The notes beneath the pieces are model-generated. The model did not search any database and was not told the origin of the DNA. It saw only the letters and a list, made by a program, of their open reading frames with translations. This document shows, piece by piece, positions 93 to 13,220 of a stretch of 43,352 nt of DNA (position 1 is the stretch's first letter; the number at the start of each line of letters is the position of its first letter). Origin of the DNA: Thermofilum sp. (GTDB lineage Archaea > Thermoproteota > Thermoprotei > Thermofilales > Thermofilaceae); NCBI GenBank assembly GCA_023269735.1, contig JAGDWA010000005.1, forward strand, positions 1 to 43,352, read 5' to 3'. A program made the position numbers and the translations under genes.

Positions 93-326
93 ATGCCCGT
101 GGAAGCGGTCCTCACCCAGCAGGCGGCGCGCGCTAAGCTGGCGCTGGAGCTCGCCCGGGAGGCCAGGGGCGACATCCTGAGCGCGGCGAGGAAGCTCGCG
201 GCGGCGGCCGCCCTCCTCGGCTTGGACGGCGCCTCCGACGGGCTCGCGCGCGAGCTCGGGGGGCTGGCCGCCTCGCTGGAGCGCATCTCTGAGGAGCTTC
301 GCAAGGTTCAGAGGGGGGCGCCATGA
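93..326 (+). CDS. small helical protein of unknown function, first ORF of T4SS-like cluster
   Basis: 77-aa ORF; its stop overlaps the next start (ATGA at 323-326); Ala/Leu/Glu-rich helical composition. Confidence 0.6.
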   Translation: MPVEAVLTQQAARAKLALELAREARGDILSAARKLAAAAALLGLDGASDGLARELGGLAASLERISEELRKVQRGAP

Positions 327-676
327 GGCACCTGGAGGCCGCCGCGATCGCCCTGGCGTACGCCTTCGCCGCGGTCTACATGGCGGCCCTGGCCGCGAGG
401 CAGGCAGCGCCGGTGCACCACGTGGGTGCGCAGAGGGCGCTGGCGTGGGCGCTCCTCAACGCCCAGGACCCGCGGAGGGTCTCGGGCCTGCTCGGCCTGG
501 CGCTCAGCGGCGCGCGGGCGCAGGTGCTCGCCGCGGAGGCTGGAGACCTCGCCGCGGCGGCCGGCCAAGCGCAGGCCCAGCTCTCCGGGGTCCAGCTCCC
601 GGTCTGCTACAGCGCCGCGCTCTACAACGCGACGACGGGCGGGTGGGCCCTCGTGACGGTCTGCGCCGGCCCCTGA
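323..676 (+). CDS. small membrane-anchored secreted protein, 2 Cys in C-terminal part
   Basis: 117-aa ORF; N-terminal hydrophobic helix (AAAIALAYAFAAVYMAALAA) then short ectodomain with C..(~20)..C and NAT sequon. Confidence 0.65.
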   Translation: MRHLEAAAIALAYAFAAVYMAALAARQAAPVHHVGAQRALAWALLNAQDPRRVSGLLGLALSGARAQVLAAEAGDLAAAAGQAQAQLSGVQLPVCYSAALYNATTGGWALVTVCAGP

Positions 677-677
677 G

Positions 678-1400
678 GTGGCTTGCATGGGGAGGAGGGG
701 GCAGCTCGCCCTGGTCGGCGCGCTGGCGCTCCTGCTCGCGCTGGTCGCGCTCGTTTCGCTGAGGAGCCCGGAGCCCATTGTGGCCTGCGAGCGGGGCCAC
801 CTGCAGGCGGCGCAGCTCGTGCACCTGGCCAGGGCCTGCATGGCGACGAGGCGGTGCGACCTCGCGGCGCTGAGCTGGCTCGTCCAGCAGCTCTATCAAC
901 TCAACAACACCTACGGCCTCCCGCTCCGCCTCTACCCCACCCGCGTAGTGCGGGCCCCCAACCCTGGCACCATATCTCTGAGGGGGAGGGCGATTACTGT
1001 CACTAACACCACGACCTTCACGATCGCAACGCTGAGGAGCGCGGTGAGTGGGCAGCTCGACGCAGTCGAGGTCGTCGTCACCGCCGCCTCGGAGCCCACC
1101 GGCAGGACCTACCTGAAGGTGGTGGAGGGGAGGGAGTACGCCATGGTCGAGGTGAGGTTGACCTACAGTCACGAGTACCGGTCGCCGTTCTTCAATGTGA
1201 CTCTGTGCCCCTCGCTGGGCGCGCTTGACGGGGTGGCCGACATCAAGCGCGTCGGCGCCTGCGAGTGGCTGGTCGGGGTGCCGCTCCAGCTGGCCCGGCC
1301 CGCTGACATCAACGTCCAGCCGGGGCTGGGCGTGAAGGGCTACAGGTACGAGCTGGTGGACGAGTTCGGCGTCCCCGTGGTCGTGCTGTTCAGGTGGTAG
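678..1400 (+). CDS. membrane-anchored secreted protein with several Cys and sequons
   Basis: 240-aa ORF; N-terminal TM (LALVGALALLLALVALVSL) followed by beta-rich ectodomain; NNT, TNT/NTT, NVT sequons. Confidence 0.65.
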   Translation: MACMGRRGQLALVGALALLLALVALVSLRSPEPIVACERGHLQAAQLVHLARACMATRRCDLAALSWLVQQLYQLNNTYGLPLRLYPTRVVRAPNPGTISLRGRAITVTNTTTFTIATLRSAVSGQLDAVEVVVTAASEPTGRTYLKVVEGREYAMVEVRLTYSHEYRSPFFNVTLCPSLGALDGVADIKRVGACEWLVGVPLQLARPADINVQPGLGVKGYRYELVDEFGVPVVVLFRW

Positions 1401-1732
1401 CCGTGGAGAGGCTCCTCCTCTACCTCGCGCTGGCGGCCGCGGTCGCGTTGATCCTGCTCCAGCTGCCGAGGCTGAGGCCCCAGCCGGACTACTGCGCCGA
1501 GGCGAGGCGGCTCACTGCCACCATCCTGGCCGTCTGGGCGGGCGGGGGCAGCGTCACCGACGCCTTCGACCTGAGGGGCGTGGCGGTGACGCCCACAGGA
1601 GTCAGCTGCGCTCCGTGCGGCGTGAGCGCCAGCGCCCCCATCGAGAGCAGGCTGGGCAGCGGCGAGCTGAGCGGGAGGTGGAGGCTGAGGATCCGCTACC
1701 AGGGCGGCAAGGTCGTTCTGGAGCCCGCGTAG
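1394..1732 (+). CDS. small membrane-anchored secreted protein (pseudopilin-like architecture)
   Basis: 112-aa ORF overlapping previous ORF; N-terminal TM (LLLYLALAAAVALILLQL) and small ectodomain with 3 Cys. Confidence 0.6.
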   Translation: MVAVERLLLYLALAAAVALILLQLPRLRPQPDYCAEARRLTATILAVWAGGGSVTDAFDLRGVAVTPTGVSCAPCGVSASAPIESRLGSGELSGRWRLRIRYQGGKVVLEPA

Positions 1733-1793
1733 GCGGCTGGAAGCTCTGGCTGGGCCGTCCCCCTGTATTACTTTCGGCCTCCTTTCACAACCT

Positions 1794-1803
1794 AAAATAA
1801 ATA
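1794..1803 (+). promoter_or_regulatory. TATA-like box (aaaataaata) for pilin candidate
   Basis: AT-rich box about 35 nt before ATG 1835, followed by ggtgga SD-like sequence at 1828-1833. Confidence 0.5.
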
Positions 1804-1834
1804 CTAGAGGTTGAAGCAGCACCCTCGGTGGACC

Positions 1835-2221
1835 ATGGTGAGGAGGAGAGCAGCGTTGCTGCTGTGGCTCGCGACGGTCTCTCTCCCATGGAATGTGTAC
1901 GCGGAGGGCCCCACCGTAAACTGGGACAGCTTGAGGGGGTACGCTGTTCTGGCAGCAAAGCTGGCGGTGACAGCTACGGGCATCATGGTGTTCCTCGGGG
2001 CTATCGCAAGGAGTGCCATCGCCGCGCTGAAGAGGCACTTGGGGGGCGCCGCCACAGCTATGGCTCAGAGGGAGATCTATGAGGCCATCGAGGGTCCGCT
2101 CTACTGGCTGATCGCCCTGGCGCTCGCGGCTTGGCTGCCCGACATACTTGTCTCTATAGGGCTGCTGCCCAAGGGAACCCCCTTCACCGTCAGCTGGGAT
2201 GAAATCTTCGGCAGGCCCTGA
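1835..2221 (+). CDS. VirB2/TraA-like (CedA1/TedC-like) two-TM pilin candidate with signal peptide
   Basis: From ATG 1835: MVRRRAALLLWLATVSLPWNVYA|EGPTVNW, then two hydrophobic helices separated by a basic loop (ALKRHLGG). Track ORF begins at TTG 1811; 1835 is preferred because of promoter and SD. Confidence 0.6.
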   Translation: MVRRRAALLLWLATVSLPWNVYAEGPTVNWDSLRGYAVLAAKLAVTATGIMVFLGAIARSAIAALKRHLGGAATAMAQREIYEAIEGPLYWLIALALAAWLPDILVSIGLLPKGTPFTVSWDEIFGRP

Positions 2222-2227
2222 GGGCTT

Positions 2228-3022
2228 ATGCAGTCAATTTTATTAGAATTCTCCATAGCTGCTGCAGCCATCGTGGCGGAGTTCGCCTACGGAGCTTGGC
2301 TCCTGAACCTACCTGCACCGCAGCTCAAGGCCCGCGGGTACGAGGTGATCTACGGGGCGCTGGAATCCTGCGTGGCCGGCGCAATCCTAGCAGCCATCCT
2401 GGTGTGGGCACCCACCGCCCTCAGGGCCCTCGGTATCGGATTCGTGAGCCCTGGTGCTGCCCTCGAGAGCTACGCAGCCGCGCGCGACCGCTACGTGAAG
2501 TACGCTGTCGACCTGGCCCTCGTGGCGCGCGACCTTACGCTGACGGGAGTGCTGGCGCCCCTCGCGACGACCTGGTATGCGTCCAGCGGCCTCGCAAACC
2601 TCTTCACCGGGTACCTCGCGGCTCTCTCGAGCGCGCTGCTCGTAGCATCGCGCACCTGCCTGGTCCTCGGTCCCTCCCTCATGAGCCTCGGAATAGTGCT
2701 CGCTGGCGTCAGCAGGCTCAGAAGGCTCGGTGCCACCCTGGCCATCAGTATAGCTTGCCTCGAAGTGGTCGCCGGGGCCCTAGCGCCCTATTTCGCTGCG
2801 AACGCCGCATCGCTTAGGTTCAAGTACGCTGGGGTGCCGCTCTCCGGCATAGCGCAGTACTTCGCTGGCGCCGTCAACGACGTGCTTGAGGACGTGAAGC
2901 TGATGGGTGAGTTCTCCGCCTGGGTCAGTCTCGCGATCGGTCTGGCAGCTGCGGTCAGCGCCGGCCTCTCGCTAGCCTTGGGGGGCCTTCCGGAGACACT
3001 AGTGTCCAGGCTGAGGGCGTGA
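2228..3022 (+). CDS. polytopic membrane protein, CedA/VirB6-like
   Basis: 264 aa, about 6-7 hydrophobic segments; directly downstream of pilin candidate and upstream of VirB4-like ATPase gene cluster. Confidence 0.55.
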   Translation: MQSILLEFSIAAAAIVAEFAYGAWLLNLPAPQLKARGYEVIYGALESCVAGAILAAILVWAPTALRALGIGFVSPGAALESYAAARDRYVKYAVDLALVARDLTLTGVLAPLATTWYASSGLANLFTGYLAALSSALLVASRTCLVLGPSLMSLGIVLAGVSRLRRLGATLAISIACLEVVAGALAPYFAANAASLRFKYAGVPLSGIAQYFAGAVNDVLEDVKLMGEFSAWVSLAIGLAAAVSAGLSLALGGLPETLVSRLRA

Positions 3023-3026
3023 GCCC

Positions 3027-6000
3027 ATGAGTCCTAGGCCGCTCCTGCCGCTCGTGCTGCTCGCTGAGGCCGCCGCCTCTGCAGCCCTAGCCAGGCGAAG
3101 GGGGGAGCGGCTCGCTGAGGCCGCGATCGCGCTTGTGATCGCGGCCCTCCTAACGACGCTGGACGTGGCCGAGCTGGCGTCGCTGGTGGGAGGTGTACCA
3201 TCGGGGTTCTTCTCGCCCCAGACGACGAGGGCCATCGGCCTCCAGCTAATGAAGGCGTGCGAGGCATTGGTCGCGAGAGCGGCCAGCTGGAGCTTCCGCA
3301 CCTCGATAATCTCTTCCATCGCGTTGGCCGCGCTAACCGTTGCACTGGCGGGGAAGGGGAGTGTAGTCGCCGCGTCGCTGGCCCAGGGTGGGCTGAGCTT
3401 CGTGCAGAGCCTAGCCAACGCCTACCTGACCCTTTCGCTCACGTTCAGGTTCGTTGGGCAGCTGTACCTCTCGGTCGCCTCAGCGGCGGAAAGGGCGCGG
3501 GAGGTCATGCCGGCCGTGGGCCTGCTCCTCGTTCCTCGCGCCACGCGGCGCGCTGCGGCAGCGCTACTGCTAGCGCTGGCGCTAGTGGCACTCGCGCTAC
3601 CGCTGGCCCTCAATTCGCTGGCGCTCCGATTGAGGGCCCCTCGAGAGGCGCCGGGCAACTGGACGGGAGTGGGCGTGGTCTGGCTCCGAGGCAGCATGGT
3701 GGTGCCTGTGGCCGCTCTGGAGGATGGCTCAGTGAGAGTCTACAGCGAGGCCTACCCCTTACCCCCGGGCGCCGTCGCTGTGCTGAGGGGCCCCGGTGGC
3801 AGCGTGTTTGCGCGTCCGCTGGGCGCTTGGCACCTGTTGCCGGCTGCTAGGTACCTCGTTGAGAGGCTGACCTACGCCGGCTTCGTGCTACCTCTCGCTA
3901 ACGCCACCGCCTTCAGCGTGCCAGACGTCGTCAGCACCCGCCTCGAGTGCACCGAGGAGGCCGTCTGCACGCCCCGAGCGACCAACGCGACCGCGGTGGA
4001 TCTCCGTGTGGGGGGCACCCAGGGTGCTCTCGTGCTATTCTACGATACTGTGGCACAGGGCTGGGGCTACTGGCTGGGCAGGGGCTTCTTCGTCTTGGCG
4101 GGCACCGCCAGGAGGGGATCCCCCCTCCCTTGGTACGGTGATGGGGGCTACCTCACGGACCACGAGGTCGTCGCCCCCCTCCACCCGGACTACGGCAGTA
4201 GCAGGGAGTTACGAGAGCGGATAGCCCTGAACGGCTCGGGGGGGCTCGTTGAAGTCGACGTGAGGGTCGTGGAGGTGGAGGCGTGGATAGAGGGGACTCT
4301 CGACCCCAGGTCGCTGTGCGATCAGGGCGTCCCGGCAACCGCTGAGAGGGGCCTGAGCAGGCTCGTAATCAACGGGACGGAGTACGCGCTAGAGCCGAAG
4401 CTGTCCTGCGAGGTAGCCTACGTCGATCCTTCGCTCGAAGACGCGAGGGCCGATGAGGCTCGGTGGTTCGACCAGTGGGCGCGGGTGCTCAACGCGTCTC
4501 TGCCACCAACCTACAACCACTCTTCGAGGTGCTTCTACGGGGGAAGCCTGGTGCAGGCCCTCACCTTCGAAGGCCGCCTCTACTACTCCCGAGCCCTCTG
4601 GCCACGACCCAAGGTGCCCAGGGTTCTCGTGAGGGCCAAGTACTACGGCGAGATCGCAAGGCCGGCCGTAGTCCGCGGTAGGGTCGGCGGAGTCGCTTAC
4701 ACCTTCACAGCCAAGTTGAAGTTGGTGGGCGGCACGGGTGAGTGCGAGGCAGAGCTCACGATCTCGAATTACACGATGATGAGCAGCGAGGCTGTCGCAG
4801 GCCTCCTCTACGACAGTGACTTCGAGCCCGTGCTCAACGGTAGCGTCGCCAAGCAGATAGTGGTGGAGGCCTCCGACCTCTTCAACCACGTGGGCACCCT
4901 CGCTACACTGGTGACGTATGTTTACGCGGCTGTGGTAGCCATCGGAGTGGTGGGCGGAGGGGGTCGGGCGCCGCGTCTGCTGAGGGGGCTGCTGCGGCCT
5001 TCGCGCGAGGCCTTCGAGCTGCTGGGCTCGGGGGTGACCGCGCTCGCTGGGAGCATTTTATCGATCGCCTTTGCGAAGGGTAGGGATCGCTCTCCGAGGG
5101 TGCCTCTCGTCCTGGCCGCCACCGACCTCGCGGAGGAGCTAAGGAGGGAGCAGAGGAGGCTGAGGATGGGCCTCAGAGCCCTAGTACAGGAGGGGCGGGC
5201 TAGGAGGCTGGCGAGGAAGGGGCTGGCGACGCTGGCCAGCTACGGTAGGCTGCACCCCCTGCCGGCCCTGCTGCGGGCATTCAGCGATGTTGCGCGAGAG
5301 CTGGCATTGCGCAGGGTGAGGTTGGACGTCCCCTACCTGGAGAGGCTCAGGCTGGCCCTCTGGGATCCGCTGGCCCGTCGGCTGATGGTGGCGAGCGACG
5401 TTCTGTACGCAGCCTCGTGGCTGCTGGAGTCGAGGCTCCTCTCCGCGGCGCCAGCCATGGCCTTCGCCAAGCGGCTCTGGAGGGGCTACAGGCTGATCGC
5501 TCCCGGAGGGCCCACAAGGGGAGGGTCGGAGCGCCTGAGGAGCTTGGACGAAAGTCTCATCTCCGCGGCGAGGAGGATGCTGGAGGACCGCTACTCCGCC
5601 GCCTGCTGGGGCAGAGTGGTTCAGAACCTGAGCAGGCACGTGAGCCTCAGGGGCCTTCTCGAGCGGGCGGCCGGCGGCCTAGAGGCAGGTTCGCCTCAGG
5701 AGGCCGCCTTAAAGCTGCTGATCGTGGCGGCCGCGAGGGGCCTTGAGAGGGAGGAGTTCTTCAGGCTGCTAGCCAAGTATCCCTCGGTGGCGCTAAGCCT
5801 AGCCGACCTGGCTGCGCAGGGGAGGATCCTCCTCAACCGTACGTGGAGGAGGGAGGTCGCCCTCTCCCTCTCCAGGCTTAATGTGGGGGCTAGCATCGAT
5901 CTGGGGTCGGTGTGGTTGTCATCAATCGAGCGGGGCGAGGGGTGGCGCTACTTGGCTGTTCGCTACGCGCTAGACCGAGAGCTCACGGGGGGCCAAGCTA

Positions 6001-6743
6001 CCCAGGGGGTGCCCCCCGGCGCCAAAAGCCTGCTGGACAGAGCGTTGGGGCCCCTATCGAGGGGCGAAGTCCCGGAGGATGAGATCGTGAGGTTGCTCGA
6101 GAGTGGCTTCGGGGAGTGGGAGGAGAGGTTCCTGCGGGGCTTCGCCGACGCCGCGGGGGGCGGTGGTGTGAGTGCGGCAGAGGCTGTTGAGGCGCTGCTC
6201 ATGAGTGGGGACGCGTACTGGGCTGGGTGGGTCGCGGCCCTGGCGGGGAGGGGCGAGGTGTCGCTGGACCTGCTCGAGAGGGCCGTCGGAGCTGTGGCTG
6301 AGAGCGGAAGGGCGAGGGGAGGGCCCGCTGAAGCGGCGGTGAGGAGGGTGGAGCAGTTCCTGGAGAGGAGTTACCGGGGGCTTGCCGACGCCCGTTTCGA
6401 GCTCGAGAAGGCTCTCGACGTGATGAGGCAGCAGCTCGCGCTGCCCTCGCCCGGCGCTAGCGTGGCGTTGAGGCTGGCGGAGAGGAGGGAGGCGGCGGAG
6501 CTGGCCGCGAGACTGGAGGAGGTGGGAGAGGGGGTGGAGCGGGCCGTCTCGCTCGTCAACGCCCTGCTGGCGGAGTACGAGGAGGTGAAGCGAGCTACGA
6601 TCGGTCTGCCGCACGAGTGGGCCGAAGAGCTGACCAGAGCGCTGGAGGTCTGGCGCAGCGCGGCCTACTCCACGCTGAACGACCTCTACCGAGCGCAGCT
6701 CGAAGCGGACGAGCTGCTTAAGAGGCTCAGGCCGGGTGCGTAG
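3027..6743 (+). CDS. large membrane protein: N-terminal multi-TM, sequon-rich ectodomain, C-terminal TMs and long helical (probably cytoplasmic) domain; T4SS-like channel component candidate
   Basis: 1238 aa; N-terminal TMs resemble the 264-aa protein; about 9 N-x-S/T sequons between the TM blocks; Arg/Glu/Leu-rich helical C-terminal half. Confidence 0.6.
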   Translation: MSPRPLLPLVLLAEAAASAALARRRGERLAEAAIALVIAALLTTLDVAELASLVGGVPSGFFSPQTTRAIGLQLMKACEALVARAASWSFRTSIISSIALAALTVALAGKGSVVAASLAQGGLSFVQSLANAYLTLSLTFRFVGQLYLSVASAAERAREVMPAVGLLLVPRATRRAAAALLLALALVALALPLALNSLALRLRAPREAPGNWTGVGVVWLRGSMVVPVAALEDGSVRVYSEAYPLPPGAVAVLRGPGGSVFARPLGAWHLLPAARYLVERLTYAGFVLPLANATAFSVPDVVSTRLECTEEAVCTPRATNATAVDLRVGGTQGALVLFYDTVAQGWGYWLGRGFFVLAGTARRGSPLPWYGDGGYLTDHEVVAPLHPDYGSSRELRERIALNGSGGLVEVDVRVVEVEAWIEGTLDPRSLCDQGVPATAERGLSRLVINGTEYALEPKLSCEVAYVDPSLEDARADEARWFDQWARVLNASLPPTYNHSSRCFYGGSLVQALTFEGRLYYSRALWPRPKVPRVLVRAKYYGEIARPAVVRGRVGGVAYTFTAKLKLVGGTGECEAELTISNYTMMSSEAVAGLLYDSDFEPVLNGSVAKQIVVEASDLFNHVGTLATLVTYVYAAVVAIGVVGGGGRAPRLLRGLLRPSREAFELLGSGVTALAGSILSIAFAKGRDRSPRVPLVLAATDLAEELRREQRRLRMGLRALVQEGRARRLARKGLATLASYGRLHPLPALLRAFSDVARELALRRVRLDVPYLERLRLALWDPLARRLMVASDVLYAASWLLESRLLSAAPAMAFAKRLWRGYRLIAPGGPTRGGSERLRSLDESLISAARRMLEDRYSAACWGRVVQNLSRHVSLRGLLERAAGGLEAGSPQEAALKLLIVAAARGLEREEFFRLLAKYPSVALSLADLAAQGRILLNRTWRREVALSLSRLNVGASIDLGSVWLSSIERGEGWRYLAVRYALDRELTGGQATQGVPPGAKSLLDRALGPLSRGEVPEDEIVRLLESGFGEWEERFLRGFADAAGGGGVSAAEAVEALLMSGDAYWAGWVAALAGRGEVSLDLLERAVGAVAESGRARGGPAEAAVRRVEQFLERSYRGLADARFELEKALDVMRQQLALPSPGASVALRLAERREAAELAARLEEVGEGVERAVSLVNALLAEYEEVKRATIGLPHEWAEELTRALEVWRSAAYSTLNDLYRAQLEADELLKRLRPGA

Positions 6744-6745
6744 CG

Positions 6746-8959
6746 GTGTACGTTCCGGGTCTCCACCTCTTGGTACTCTACCTCCTCTTCACGCTGGCCC
6801 TACTGGTAGCCCTAGCGGCTAAGACGCCGCTCCCCCCAACCCTCCTAGCGGCGGTGCTCGGCGGGTACTTCGCGTACCTGAAGAGGCGCGAGCTCCTGGA
6901 GGTGATCTACGGCGAGAGGTGCCTCCTCCTCCTGCGCTTGTCGGAGGTTAAAGTGAAAAAGGATTACATAGCTTTGAAAATGAAGTCTAAGGTGATCATA
7001 AGCGCATTCCTTAAAATTGAGAACGTAGATTTTCCTGAAAGTGATGCGAAGCTTGGAGAAACAACCTCACGTTTCATTTCGTCGCTCTTCCTCCCCTCCG
7101 CCACCGTCAACGTGATCTCCCTCGGTCAGGGCGGTCAGCGCAGCTACTACCTAAAAGTGAACTTTTTAGTTGATATGATTCACCTATCTAGTTTGCTAGT
7201 CAACTTGTCGGCCGTGCTAAGGGAGCTCCAACGCCGCCTCCTGTCGCTGGGTGTCCGCGCGGAGCCGGCTGACCCCTCCGAGGTCCTCCCCTCGCTCGTC
7301 GAAGTAGCCACGAGGAGGTACTCCCCCACGCCGCCCCTCGTGACCTTAGCCACGGCGGCCCTGGTGCTCCTCCTGGCTGCGGTTAACCCCCACTTACTGC
7401 CGCTGGCCCTTGTCGGGCTTCCGTTAGTGCCCCTAGAGCTGAGGTTGTCGAGGGGCGGCGAGGTGCCGCTCAGGTTCAAGCCGCTGTCCCCAGTGAGCTA
7501 CGCTATCAACGAGATCCCTGACCACTTCGGGGCGGCCTCCCAGGTTCGCAGCTTCGCCGGTGCCCTCGTTTGGAGCGACGACGTCTTCGTGGCCCTGCTG
7601 GTGCCGGAGGATCTGGCGTTGTTCAGCGCGAAAGCCCGCAAGGCCATGGAGGTGCTGGAAGCCGGTCGGGTTGGCGTCGGCAAGCTTGAGGACGAGTTCA
7701 AGGCCATGAACGTGGTCAGCATGAAGCAGGCCCTTGAGGCCGGGGCGAAGCCCTTCAGGGTGGCCTTCCTCGTGGGTGGGGAGCCGTGGCGCTACGAGCC
7801 CCTGGGGCTCGAGCGTGTCGCCTCCCTGCCCGCGCTGGTAAGAGGGTCGTCGTATCTGGCTGCAGCGGGCGTGGTGCTGGGCCTAGCGCCCAGCGCCTCC
7901 GCCGTCAAGATCAGCCCCCAGCTGGCGTGGCTGGCCCCCCACTCATTCCTGCGCCCCCGCACGCGCCGCACGCCCCGCGCCGTGTACCTGGGCCGCGGCC
8001 TCCGCAGGGACGAGGAGGTGTGGCTGGAGCTCGACCTCCTGGAGAACGTGCACGGGCTCATCGTCGGCCCGATGGGCAGCGGCAAGAGCACGACCGCGCG
8101 CACGCTGGCGCTCAGGGCGCTCGAGAGGGGGATCGTCCCCATCATCGTCGACCCGAGCGGCGAGTACAGGCCGTTCGCCCGGCGGGCTGGCTTCGAGGTG
8201 GTGGACCTGTGGGACCGCCCGTTCAACCCCCTGCGCGCGAGCCCCTTCGACATCGAGAGATCGCTGTCTCACGTGGCGCCGCTGAGCGAGTACGAGGCGC
8301 ACCTCCTCAGGTCCCACTTGGGGGAAGCGCCCCGCTCCCTTGGGGAGCTCATCGAGGCTTGCAGGGGCACCAGCCTAGCGTGGAAGCTCGAGAGGCTTCA
8401 GCCCTACTTCAGCGGCGAGGGCACCAGGGTCGATGAGCTGCTCGCGGCACGGAGGGCCTTCGTCCTCTGCATGGGCAGCACCTCATCGGGCAGGTACGTC
8501 GCCATGCCCGTGGAGGTCCAGAGGACCGCCTTCGAACTCCTCCTGGCCCAGCTGAGAGACTACGTGGTCGCGCAGGGCCTGAGCGAGCCCAGGTGGATGC
8601 TGATAGTCGACGAGGGGCATCTCTTCATGGTGCCCCCACCCGGCTTCAGCGAGCCGCTGGTTGTGACCATGGCGAGGATGCTGAGGAAGTTCGGCCTGGC
8701 CGTGGTCGTCCTCACCCACGAGTGGGGCGACGTCCCCGAGCAGTTTCGGAGGGCCGCCGGCTGGAAGCTAGCGCTGGCCCACAGCGACCCGGACTACGTC
8801 TCGATGACGAGGGTATACATGGCTCTCACGACGAGCGAGCTGGCGTGGTTCCAGGCCGGGGTCAGGGGCAGGGCCATCCTCAGGAGGGGGCACGAGCCCT
8901 ACAACATCCTGGTTGAAATAGAGCCCGCCGCGGCGGCGATTGCACCTGGGAGCGATTGA
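6746..8959 (+). CDS. membrane-associated VirB4/HerA-family ATPase (CedB/TedB-like)
   Basis: 737 aa; Walker A GPMGSGKST, IVDPSGEY, Walker B WMLIVDEGHLF; two pairs of N-terminal hydrophobic segments. Confidence 0.8.
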   Translation: MYVPGLHLLVLYLLFTLALLVALAAKTPLPPTLLAAVLGGYFAYLKRRELLEVIYGERCLLLLRLSEVKVKKDYIALKMKSKVIISAFLKIENVDFPESDAKLGETTSRFISSLFLPSATVNVISLGQGGQRSYYLKVNFLVDMIHLSSLLVNLSAVLRELQRRLLSLGVRAEPADPSEVLPSLVEVATRRYSPTPPLVTLATAALVLLLAAVNPHLLPLALVGLPLVPLELRLSRGGEVPLRFKPLSPVSYAINEIPDHFGAASQVRSFAGALVWSDDVFVALLVPEDLALFSAKARKAMEVLEAGRVGVGKLEDEFKAMNVVSMKQALEAGAKPFRVAFLVGGEPWRYEPLGLERVASLPALVRGSSYLAAAGVVLGLAPSASAVKISPQLAWLAPHSFLRPRTRRTPRAVYLGRGLRRDEEVWLELDLLENVHGLIVGPMGSGKSTTARTLALRALERGIVPIIVDPSGEYRPFARRAGFEVVDLWDRPFNPLRASPFDIERSLSHVAPLSEYEAHLLRSHLGEAPRSLGELIEACRGTSLAWKLERLQPYFSGEGTRVDELLAARRAFVLCMGSTSSGRYVAMPVEVQRTAFELLLAQLRDYVVAQGLSEPRWMLIVDEGHLFMVPPPGFSEPLVVTMARMLRKFGLAVVVLTHEWGDVPEQFRRAAGWKLALAHSDPDYVSMTRVYMALTTSELAWFQAGVRGRAILRRGHEPYNILVEIEPAAAAIAPGSD

Positions 8960-11479: not shown

Positions 11480-12274
11480 CTAGCGCAGCTGCATTTTCGC
11501 GAGGAGGGCCCTCAGGTAGCCCACACCCATGCCGACGCCCAGCACCTGATCCCTGCGGCCCTCGTACTCAACGGAGAGGAAGTTGCGGTACCCAACCCTG
11601 CTGAGCGCCCCGATTATCGCCTCGAAGTCGATGAGCCCCTCTCCCGGGGCGCAGGCCCTGCCCCACGCGTCCACGTCCTTCGCGTGGAAGTGCTCCACCC
11701 ACTGCCCCAGCCTACGGGCCGCCTCGAGCGGGCTGTCGCCGGCGAAGGCGAAGTTGCCCGCGTCGAACGTCAGGCGCAGGCTCCCCGAGCCCACTCGCCT
11801 GAGGATCCTCTCGACGACGTCCACCCTGCTGAAGTGCCTCCCGTGGTTCTCGAGGGCTAGGACCACGCCCTCGCTTGACGCGTAGTCGGCCGCCTCAGCG
11901 AGCCCCTCAACGGCCCACCTCTCTGCCTCCCCCGCTTCGAACCCGGGCTTCAGGTCGCCCGCGAACACCCTTACGCGCTTCGCGTCGAACTTCTTCGCGT
12001 CGAGGATTGCGGCCTTCACCTTCTCGAGCTCGACCCTCCTCTCCTCGGGGCTCGGCTTGACGAAGTCGTTGGCGGTGATGTAGATCGCGAGCTCGAGGCC
12101 GGTTGCTCTGAGAGCGCGCCTCGCCTCCGCCTTCTCGTCCTCACCCCTCCAGTAGTAGCCCAGGTCGACCCCGTCCGCCCCCAGCTTCGCTGCAAGCTCT
12201 ATGAAGCGGGGGACGTCTAGCCTCCCGCCTGCGAAGTAATCCCTCAGGCTGTACACGGTGATCGAGATCTTCAC
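11480..12274 (-). CDS. sugar phosphate isomerase/epimerase (xylose isomerase-like TIM barrel)
   Basis: KISITVYSLRDYFAGG..., ALENHGRHFSRVD, TFDAGNFAFAGD, HAKDVDAW. Start GTG at 12274 overlaps upstream stop (GTGA). Confidence 0.8.
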   Translation of the reverse strand: MKISITVYSLRDYFAGGRLDVPRFIELAAKLGADGVDLGYYWRGEDEKAEARRALRATGLELAIYITANDFVKPSPEERRVELEKVKAAILDAKKFDAKRVRVFAGDLKPGFEAGEAERWAVEGLAEAADYASSEGVVLALENHGRHFSRVDVVERILRRVGSGSLRLTFDAGNFAFAGDSPLEAARRLGQWVEHFHAKDVDAWGRACAPGEGLIDFEAIIGALSRVGYRNFLSVEYEGRRDQVLGVGMGVGYLRALLAKMQLR

Positions 12275-13149
12275 CCCCGGGCACCCCTCAGCGCCGCGTC
12301 CACTATCGCCCTTAAATTCCGCGCGCAAAGGGCCGAGGCGTACTCCCCCGCCTCGGAGTAGGCCTCGCCGCCGGGCATCTCCACCAGCTCCCTGGGCAGC
12401 TGCCGCGGCCTCCAGTGCGTCTCGAGTGAGAGGTAGCCGGAGTACCCGTCCTTGATCAGCGCCCCGACCTGCCCGAGCCAGTCGACGTCCCCCTCGCCCA
12501 CGGGGACGAACTCGTGGCCCTGGGGCGTGCGCCTGCCGTCCTTGACGTGCACGTGAGCGACAAGACCCTTTACGTAGCTGTAGCCGTCCGGGAACGGGCG
12601 CTCGCCCTCGGGGTCCCAGACGTCGTTGCCGGGGTCCCAGACGGCCCTAACGACGTTGGGCTTGGACACGGCGCCGAGGAACTGCCGTAGCCTCCTGCCG
12701 TTGTTAACGTGCGTGGAGGGTTCGTTCTCGACCGCTAGCACCACCCCCTCGTCAGCCGCCACGTCCACCGCCGGCATGAAGGCCTGGAGCACGGCGCTCA
12801 GCCTCTCGTCCAGGCTCCCCGTGCGCCAGAACGTGAAGACCCTAACCACCGGCGCGTCGAGGGCCTTCGCCAGGGCGATGCAGCGCGAGAGGATGCCCAC
12901 GTGCTCGCGGACCTCGGCCTCCGAGCCCAGGTTGCACTTGAAGACGGGCGACGCTATGGCGCTGACCTCGAGCCCCTCCACCTCCAGGGCCCTCCTGATC
13001 TCGCCGGCTTTGTCCACCAGCTCGTGAGGCCTCCTGTTCCACAGCGTCCTGACCTCGACGCCCTGGAGGCGGTGCTCCCTGGCGAACTTCACGACCCTCT
13101 CGAGGTCCTGCGAAACCTCGTCGGTTATGACCGAGAGCTTCAGGCTCAC
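12271..13149 (-). CDS. sugar phosphate isomerase/epimerase (xylose isomerase-like TIM barrel)
   Basis: LKLSVITDEVSQDLERVV, AVENEPSTHVNNG, VWDPGNDVWDPEG, HVHVKDGRR. Start GTG 13149 chosen from TATA (cataaatgc) at about -26; track ORF starts at 13182. Confidence 0.8.
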   Translation of the reverse strand: MSLKLSVITDEVSQDLERVVKFAREHRLQGVEVRTLWNRRPHELVDKAGEIRRALEVEGLEVSAIASPVFKCNLGSEAEVREHVGILSRCIALAKALDAPVVRVFTFWRTGSLDERLSAVLQAFMPAVDVAADEGVVLAVENEPSTHVNNGRRLRQFLGAVSKPNVVRAVWDPGNDVWDPEGERPFPDGYSYVKGLVAHVHVKDGRRTPQGHEFVPVGEGDVDWLGQVGALIKDGYSGYLSLETHWRPRQLPRELVEMPGGEAYSEAGEYASALCARNLRAIVDAALRGARG

Positions 13150-13220
13150 GCGCGTCAGCTCCCGCCACCGGCATAAATGCATGGCGAGGGGTTGAAGAGG
13201 GCGCGGGAGCCGGGAGGGGG

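Follow-up and report, generated by a model that had tools for sequence, protein, structure and literature searches.

Paired small and extended VirB6-like proteins in a Thermofilum locus as probable parts of a Ted-type DNA-exchange machine

The locus described here raises the question of how two adjacent membrane proteins of very different length are related, and what the larger of them contributes to the genes around it. The window analysed, a stretch of 43,352 nucleotides, stems from a Thermofilum sp. genome of 1.5 Mb (93% complete) whose nearest named relatives are the Thermofilaceae MAGs JANXEW010000001 and CALHPJ010000001. A preliminary description had regarded the two proteins as duplicated CedA/VirB6-like channel proteins, one of which had acquired an extracellular domain and a cytoplasmic arm. 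Both open reading frames exist as described, are separated by 4 bases and are conserved in at least five relatives. The first encodes a TedA/CedA/VirB6-like polytopic membrane protein of 264 amino acids with 6-7 transmembrane helices (small VirB6; 2228..3022, + strand), the second an extended VirB6-like paralogue of 1238 amino acids (large VirB6; 3027..6743, + strand).

The transmembrane (TM) blocks of the two proteins were compared by profile-profile alignment with hhalign. With six sequences per family the match was not significant (P = 0.094), although it picked out the same motif that had been quoted earlier. With ten sequences each, P was 1.4e-5 (score 43.5), with columns 6-202 colinear with columns 1-219, and it fell to 1.6e-11 (score 82.5) when the small family comprised 26 sequences and the large one 25. 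As hhalign P-values apply to a single comparison, we relied on shuffled controls. None of 450 block-shuffled profiles reached the real score in the ten-sequence comparison (maximum 33.5, mean 14-16; reversed profiles approximately 20), and 60 block-shuffled profiles scored 14.4 ± 2.9 (maximum 24.2; reversed 16.5) in the largest one. In addition, the HMM of the large family matched small proteins in whole genomes with E = 5e-14 to 7e-10 (HMMER). The paralogy that had been proposed by eye was thus borne out by a profile relationship exceeding all shuffled controls.

Residues 1-200 of the large VirB6 (3027..3626) make up the TM block paralogous to the 264-amino-acid protein. The insert is followed by a final TM helix (residues 621-650; 4887..4976). 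Its alignment to the last helix in the small protein runs to a conserved GG (P = 0.0017, weak when taken alone), so that the order of elements noted before holds for both proteins. Because the post-insert helix aligns with this last helix, the insert is located in the last extracellular loop. The large VirB6 thus corresponds to a protein of the small VirB6 type that carries two additional parts, one of about 420 residues within the last extracellular loop and one of about 590 residues as an arm at the C-terminus.

A tree of small and large proteins comprising 61 rows was used to study the history of the duplication. The labels small and large need four changes on this tree compared to about 20 for shuffled labels, and three after removal of long branches. 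A single clean split between the two groups was not rejected (AU p = 0.28), and the tree resolves no single duplication. The only mixing was the joining of genome G122 with CedA, a long-branch join flagged as unsafe by the tree program. In no genome are the small and the large copy mutual nearest relatives, from which it follows that the duplication is older than the sampled lineages. It is an old event and not a local one. Of the originally proposed duplication with insertion of a domain, the paralogy was retained, while a recent tandem event at this locus was not, given that the pair occurs across two orders and its labels separate in the tree.

Composition was then used to assign the membrane sides of the added parts. 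In the ectodomain of the window protein (residues 201-620; 3627..4886) nine of ten Asn residues lie in N-x-S/T sequons, i.e., nine sequons compared to 1.05 expected, a number reached in none of 5000 shuffles (counted over residues ~200-620). The same region contains six Cys. The initial counts of about nine sequons and several Cys were therefore correct. The arm (residues 651-1238; 4977..6740) is helix-prone over its approximately 590 residues, in agreement with the helical domain of about 600 residues noted previously, and has two sequons and one Cys. Family-wide, 219 sequons were observed in ectodomains compared to 42.5 expected, and 20 in arms compared to 19.1; Cys is likewise more abundant in ectodomains than in arms. 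Moreover, Arg residues abound in the short loop preceding TM6 of either protein (RLRR in the small VirB6), so that this loop is assigned to the inside and the next one to the outside. Taken together, there is strong indirect evidence that the 420-residue insert is extracellular and the 590-residue arm, which lacks sequon enrichment, cytoplasmic, as the preliminary description had proposed. Neither of the two outcomes that it had named as contrary, unrelated TM blocks or a sequon-rich region inside the cell, was observed. The ectodomain is probably N-glycosylated and rich in β-structure.

AlphaFold models built from three-row alignments were of low confidence (pLDDT 48.5 for residues 1-700 of the large protein and 61.8 for the ectodomain alone); in them the ectodomain is β-rich and the TM block helical. 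Foldseek searches of these models against the PDB did not yield a match at E ≤ 1e-3, so that the characterization of the ectodomain as adhesin- or DNA-receptor-like found no support. Neither the profiles of the small VirB6, the large VirB6 and the pilin nor approximately 4,000 residues of the giant Pyrobaculum calidifontis relative (see below) retrieved anything meaningful in sequence searches of the PDB. Among close relatives the ectodomain is conserved to about 44% and the TM block to 42-44%, i.e., the ectodomain is no faster-evolving.

The pair is embedded in a group of genes on the + strand. Immediately upstream, an ORF for 136 amino acids (1811..2221) codes for a VirB2/TedC-like pilin, as indicated by family alignment, by its sequence and by the position of tedC in P. 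calidifontis. Its likelier start is the ATG at 1835, which gives the predicted signal peptide MVRRRAALLLWLATVSLPWNVYA/EGPTVNW (the slash marking its end) followed by two hydrophobic helices, and it ends 6 bases before the small VirB6 start at 2228. An A/T-rich TATA-like box, ACCTAAAATAAATAC (1790..1804), precedes the pilin ORF; it is possibly the archaeal promoter of the unit formed by pilin, TedA-like protein, large VirB6 and ATPase. The ATPase (6746..8959), a 737-amino-acid protein of the HerA superfamily and of the VirB4/TedB/CedB type with an N-terminal TM, begins 2 bases behind the large VirB6 gene. It matches DUF87 (1e-7) and the VirB4 structure 4ag5 (E = 5e-6); its matches to the NCBIfam VirB4, CedB and CedD models remain below the cut-off. 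In a scan of the cassette with Pfam and NCBIfam the ATPase was the only protein to receive a family name. The sequence shows four components encoded back to back, namely a pilin, a channel protein, another VirB6 paralogue of the extended type and an ATPase of the VirB4 type. Four relatives (L010-L013) have the identical order; at L009 (genome G026), the fifth, approximately 20 kb separate the ATPase gene from the cassette. In Thermofilum-type loci (L074:11723-13851, L076:11758-13884, L078:4243-6369) two consecutive genes for a 356-amino-acid TM protein and a HerA-like ATPase of 348-395 amino acids were found in place of the single VirB4-like gene, as if VirB4 were split. VirB11/T2SSE-like secretion ATPases are located near cassettes at L025:4712-5965, L074:5779-6942 and L013:2636-4054, with ParA-like ATPases nearby.

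Three further ORFs for single-TM proteins are located upstream of the pilin gene, none of which matched a database family. The first (117 amino acids; 323..676) is a conserved partner with matches at the equivalent place in L009 and L012. The second (240 amino acids; 678..1400), with one N-terminal TM and an extracellular domain carrying three sequons, is kept upstream in every Thermofilaceae relative with a contig of sufficient extent (L009-L013, L028); it may represent an additional subunit with a VirB5- or VirB8-like role. The third (112 amino acids; 1394..1732) was delineated by position and size only; its place is taken in L009, L011, L012 and L013 by single-TM ORFs of 109-123 amino acids to which it has no detectable sequence similarity.

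The small protein provides the link to known systems. Its family aligned to five TedA-type proteins, including Pcal_0766, with an hhalign probability of 98.4% and P = 5e-15 over 239 columns, and the CedA/VirB6-like identity assigned to it at the outset is supported by way of this TedA homology. TedA and CedA have been related to bacterial VirB6 by Beltran et al. (2023; PMC9905601). A genuine CedA (NF041796, 367 bits) and CedA1 (NF041797), both over the NCBIfam cut-off, are present in genome G176, and this CedA was matched by the small (2e-5) as well as the large profile (1e-5). Neither the 264- nor the 1238-amino-acid protein matched the NCBIfam CedA or CedE (NF053657) models. The Pfam model PF04610 (TrbL/VirB6) had no match in the cassette; since genuine CedA and TedA escape it as well, the model is uninformative here. 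Three pilins (L009:5809-6213, L081:9968-10387 and L084:1423-1851) match the N-terminal part of the small VirB6 profile with E-values of 2e-6 to 3e-4, which repeats in a new family the published N-terminal homology of CedA1 and CedA.

The Ted system of Thermoproteales consists of the pilin TedC, the VirB6-like 7-TM protein TedA and the VirB4-like AAA+ ATPase TedB (PMC9905601). Like Ted, the locus is chromosomal and has a homologous TedC-type pilin directly upstream of the TedA channel gene, in the same order, and a TedB-like, VirB4-type ATPase gene nearby. It differs from Ted as published in that the ATPase gene directly follows the cassette and in that the host belongs to the Thermofilaceae, which widens the range of the system and is no argument against homology. 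No extended VirB6 downstream of TedA is named in the main text on Ted (PMC9905601). The Ced system of Sulfolobales (CedA, CedA1, CedA2, CedB; CedD, CedE) shares CedA, homologous to both the small protein and the TM block of the large one, and a second VirB6 paralogue, CedE, which Saccharolobus requires for import and which also assists export (PMC11868833). Unlike the large VirB6, CedE is small (260 positions in the NCBIfam model) and lacks ectodomain and arm.

A small VirB6 gene immediately followed by a large one was found at 26 loci in Thermofilales, Thermoproteaceae and two more distant lineages. A recognizable pilin gene lies just upstream in 19 of them; that of the window, masked by an overlapping ORF, would make 20. 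Large relatives measure 783-1403 amino acids throughout Thermofilales, approximately 1,970-4,870 amino acids or more in other Thermoproteaceae and a further lineage (G248), and 839-1,788 amino acids in family f13, which has its small gene elsewhere. Small VirB6 genes with no large one adjacent occur as well (L081, L085, L086, L089, L149), also at Ced loci such as L140, which on inspection, unlike the cassette here, had no extended VirB6; the large protein is therefore not required by every archaeal system. Searches of viral contigs with three profiles and of plasmids with the ATPase profile did not reveal relatives, as expected for a domesticated system, and a mobile-element origin of this copy is consequently unsupported.

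In Pyrobaculum calidifontis TedC is Pcal_0765 and TedA is Pcal_0766 (PMC9905601). In genome G063, which we take to be this species, the signal peptide of the pilin ends at AVA/QA (residues 20-24), as published for TedC, and tedC and tedA are followed directly by a large-family ORF of 5,058 codons. Its membership is indicated by comparison of the TM-block families LT and GT (P = 2e-8) and by an HMM match with E = 1e-45 (in-sample). The predicted protein has five detectable N-terminal TMs, a sequon-rich stretch of 722 amino acids, a TM near residue 953 and an arm of approximately 4,000 amino acids. Between P. calidifontis and G076 this arm is conserved to 45%, the TM block and ectodomain to approximately 31-32%. 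Giant ORFs following tedA (L102:416-15592 in P. calidifontis, L105:635-15208, L072:1-9073, L146:1711-15495 and L138:335-14953) are 4,500-5,058 codons long where complete; genome G076 has two copies and G064 four matches. Some very large uncharacterized Thermoproteaceae genes (4,500-5,058 amino acids) are thereby assigned a likely role.

By the definition of a 2025 review, an extended VirB6 protein has at least five hydrophobic helices and, centrally or near the C-terminus, at least one large hydrophilic domain of unknown role (PMC12857230). This definition applies to the large VirB6, in which a TM block homologous to TedA and CedA is combined with a central domain of 420 and a C-terminal domain of 590 residues. 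Rickettsia has five extended VirB6 paralogues of 674-1154 amino acids (PMC2653234), and the Anaplasma protein VirB6-4 ranges from 4,322 to 9,935 amino acids (PMC7648143). The archaeal protein resembles these and other bacterial examples (Rickettsiales RvhB6a-e, Gram-positive MPF-FA, TraG of F) in joining a TM block to large hydrophilic domains and in the tandem arrangement of paralogues. No relation at the sequence level was detected, and the large VirB6 stands outside every named family. In Anaplasma the C-terminal parts are surface-exposed, whereas in the large VirB6 it is the sequon-rich central domain that lies outside, the C-terminal arm apparently lying inside. No paper naming the large gene or describing it as part of the Ted machine was found in the open-licence literature, including the main text on Ted. 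We call the large VirB6 a newly recognized archaeal variant of extended VirB6. It offers an independent archaeal case for the question left open in the review, namely the role of the extra domains (PMC12857230).

We consider it probable (roughly 0.62) that the operon 1811-8959 encodes a chromosomal Ted-type DNA-exchange machine, i.e., a domesticated archaeal type IV secretion system (T4SS), in which the large VirB6 contributes to the pore, to an outer collar and to an arm that holds ATPase and DNA strand. The TM blocks of TedA and of the large paralogue would together form the membrane base and pore for pilus assembly. The glycosylated ectodomain might form the collar of this pore on the outside, where it would lead pilus or DNA across the S-layer or make contact with the partner cell. 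The arm could reach inward to hold the incoming strand as well as the VirB4 ATPase; its binding to the latter is a guess from its membrane side and from synteny. Homologues of VirB3 and VirB8 are reported to be absent from archaea (PMC11868833), and the large VirB6 may cover the work of bacterial VirB3, VirB8, VirB10 and VirB5. The Ted system as published was left with three parts, lacking VirB3/VirB8-like connectors and a demonstrated way across the S-layer; the large VirB6 is a concrete candidate. According to the same study, Ted species are not genetically tractable (PMC9905601). Only tentatively do we extend the proposal to Ted machines in general. These may use two VirB6 proteins, the second being a hitherto unrecognized core subunit that reaches from the surface to the cytoplasm and replaces the missing VirB3, VirB8, VirB10 and VirB5, and its arm (up to approximately 4,000 residues in Pyrobaculum and relatives) may form a chamber for DNA handling or ATPase docking that has no parallel among described T4SSs.

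The large, glycosylated and Cys-containing ectodomain would also suit a protein that acts mainly in cell-cell recognition, i.e., a mating-pair adhesin on a borrowed VirB6 anchor whose arm would have no role beyond signalling or anchoring. In Sulfolobales separate Ups pili carry out the partner step, which is glycan-based (PMC11868833); according to the Ted paper P. calidifontis lacks such pili (PMC9905601), which makes a stand-in for partner recognition plausible. However, no adhesin fold or family was found with Pfam, NCBIfam or Foldseek against the PDB, the ectodomain varies no more than the TM block although more variation would be expected of a species-specific recognition domain, and arms of up to approximately 4,000 residues that are better conserved than the ectodomain (45% versus 31%) are left unexplained. 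We regard this role as unlikely.

Less likely still, the large VirB6 is an archaeal counterpart of F-plasmid TraG or of the extended VirB6 of Rickettsiales, with an extension that is either released or displayed to the partner (for entry exclusion, for stabilization or as an effector). The plan is the same, in that a VirB6-type TM block carries a huge hydrophilic extension and stands in tandem with further VirB6 copies, and Anaplasma VirB6-4, of at least 4,322 amino acids, exposes its C-terminal parts at the surface (PMC7648143). Yet the sequon counts, at expectation in arms and strongly enriched in ectodomains, argue that the arm most likely stays cytoplasmic, and neither the window protein nor the first ~4,100 residues of a Thermoproteaceae giant contains a known family, toxin or peptidase. 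It is similarly improbable that the cassette is an unrelated pilus, secretion or defence system built from the same parts and not devoted to DNA exchange. VirB11-like (T2SSE) and ParA-like ATPases adjoin several cassettes, and the best PADLOC match of the ATPase is the MADS/HerA defence model. Against this speak the profile-based assignment of the small protein to TedA and the pilin in syntenic position; besides, ParA next to Ted was also reported by Beltran et al. (PMC9905601). The defence reading based on PADLOC was set aside, as the match covers only the generic HerA ATPase core.

Elsewhere in the window, two overlapping neighbouring genes on the - strand (11480-12328 and 12271-13182) encode paralogous proteins (29% identity) that resemble sugar isomerase/TIM-barrel enzymes.
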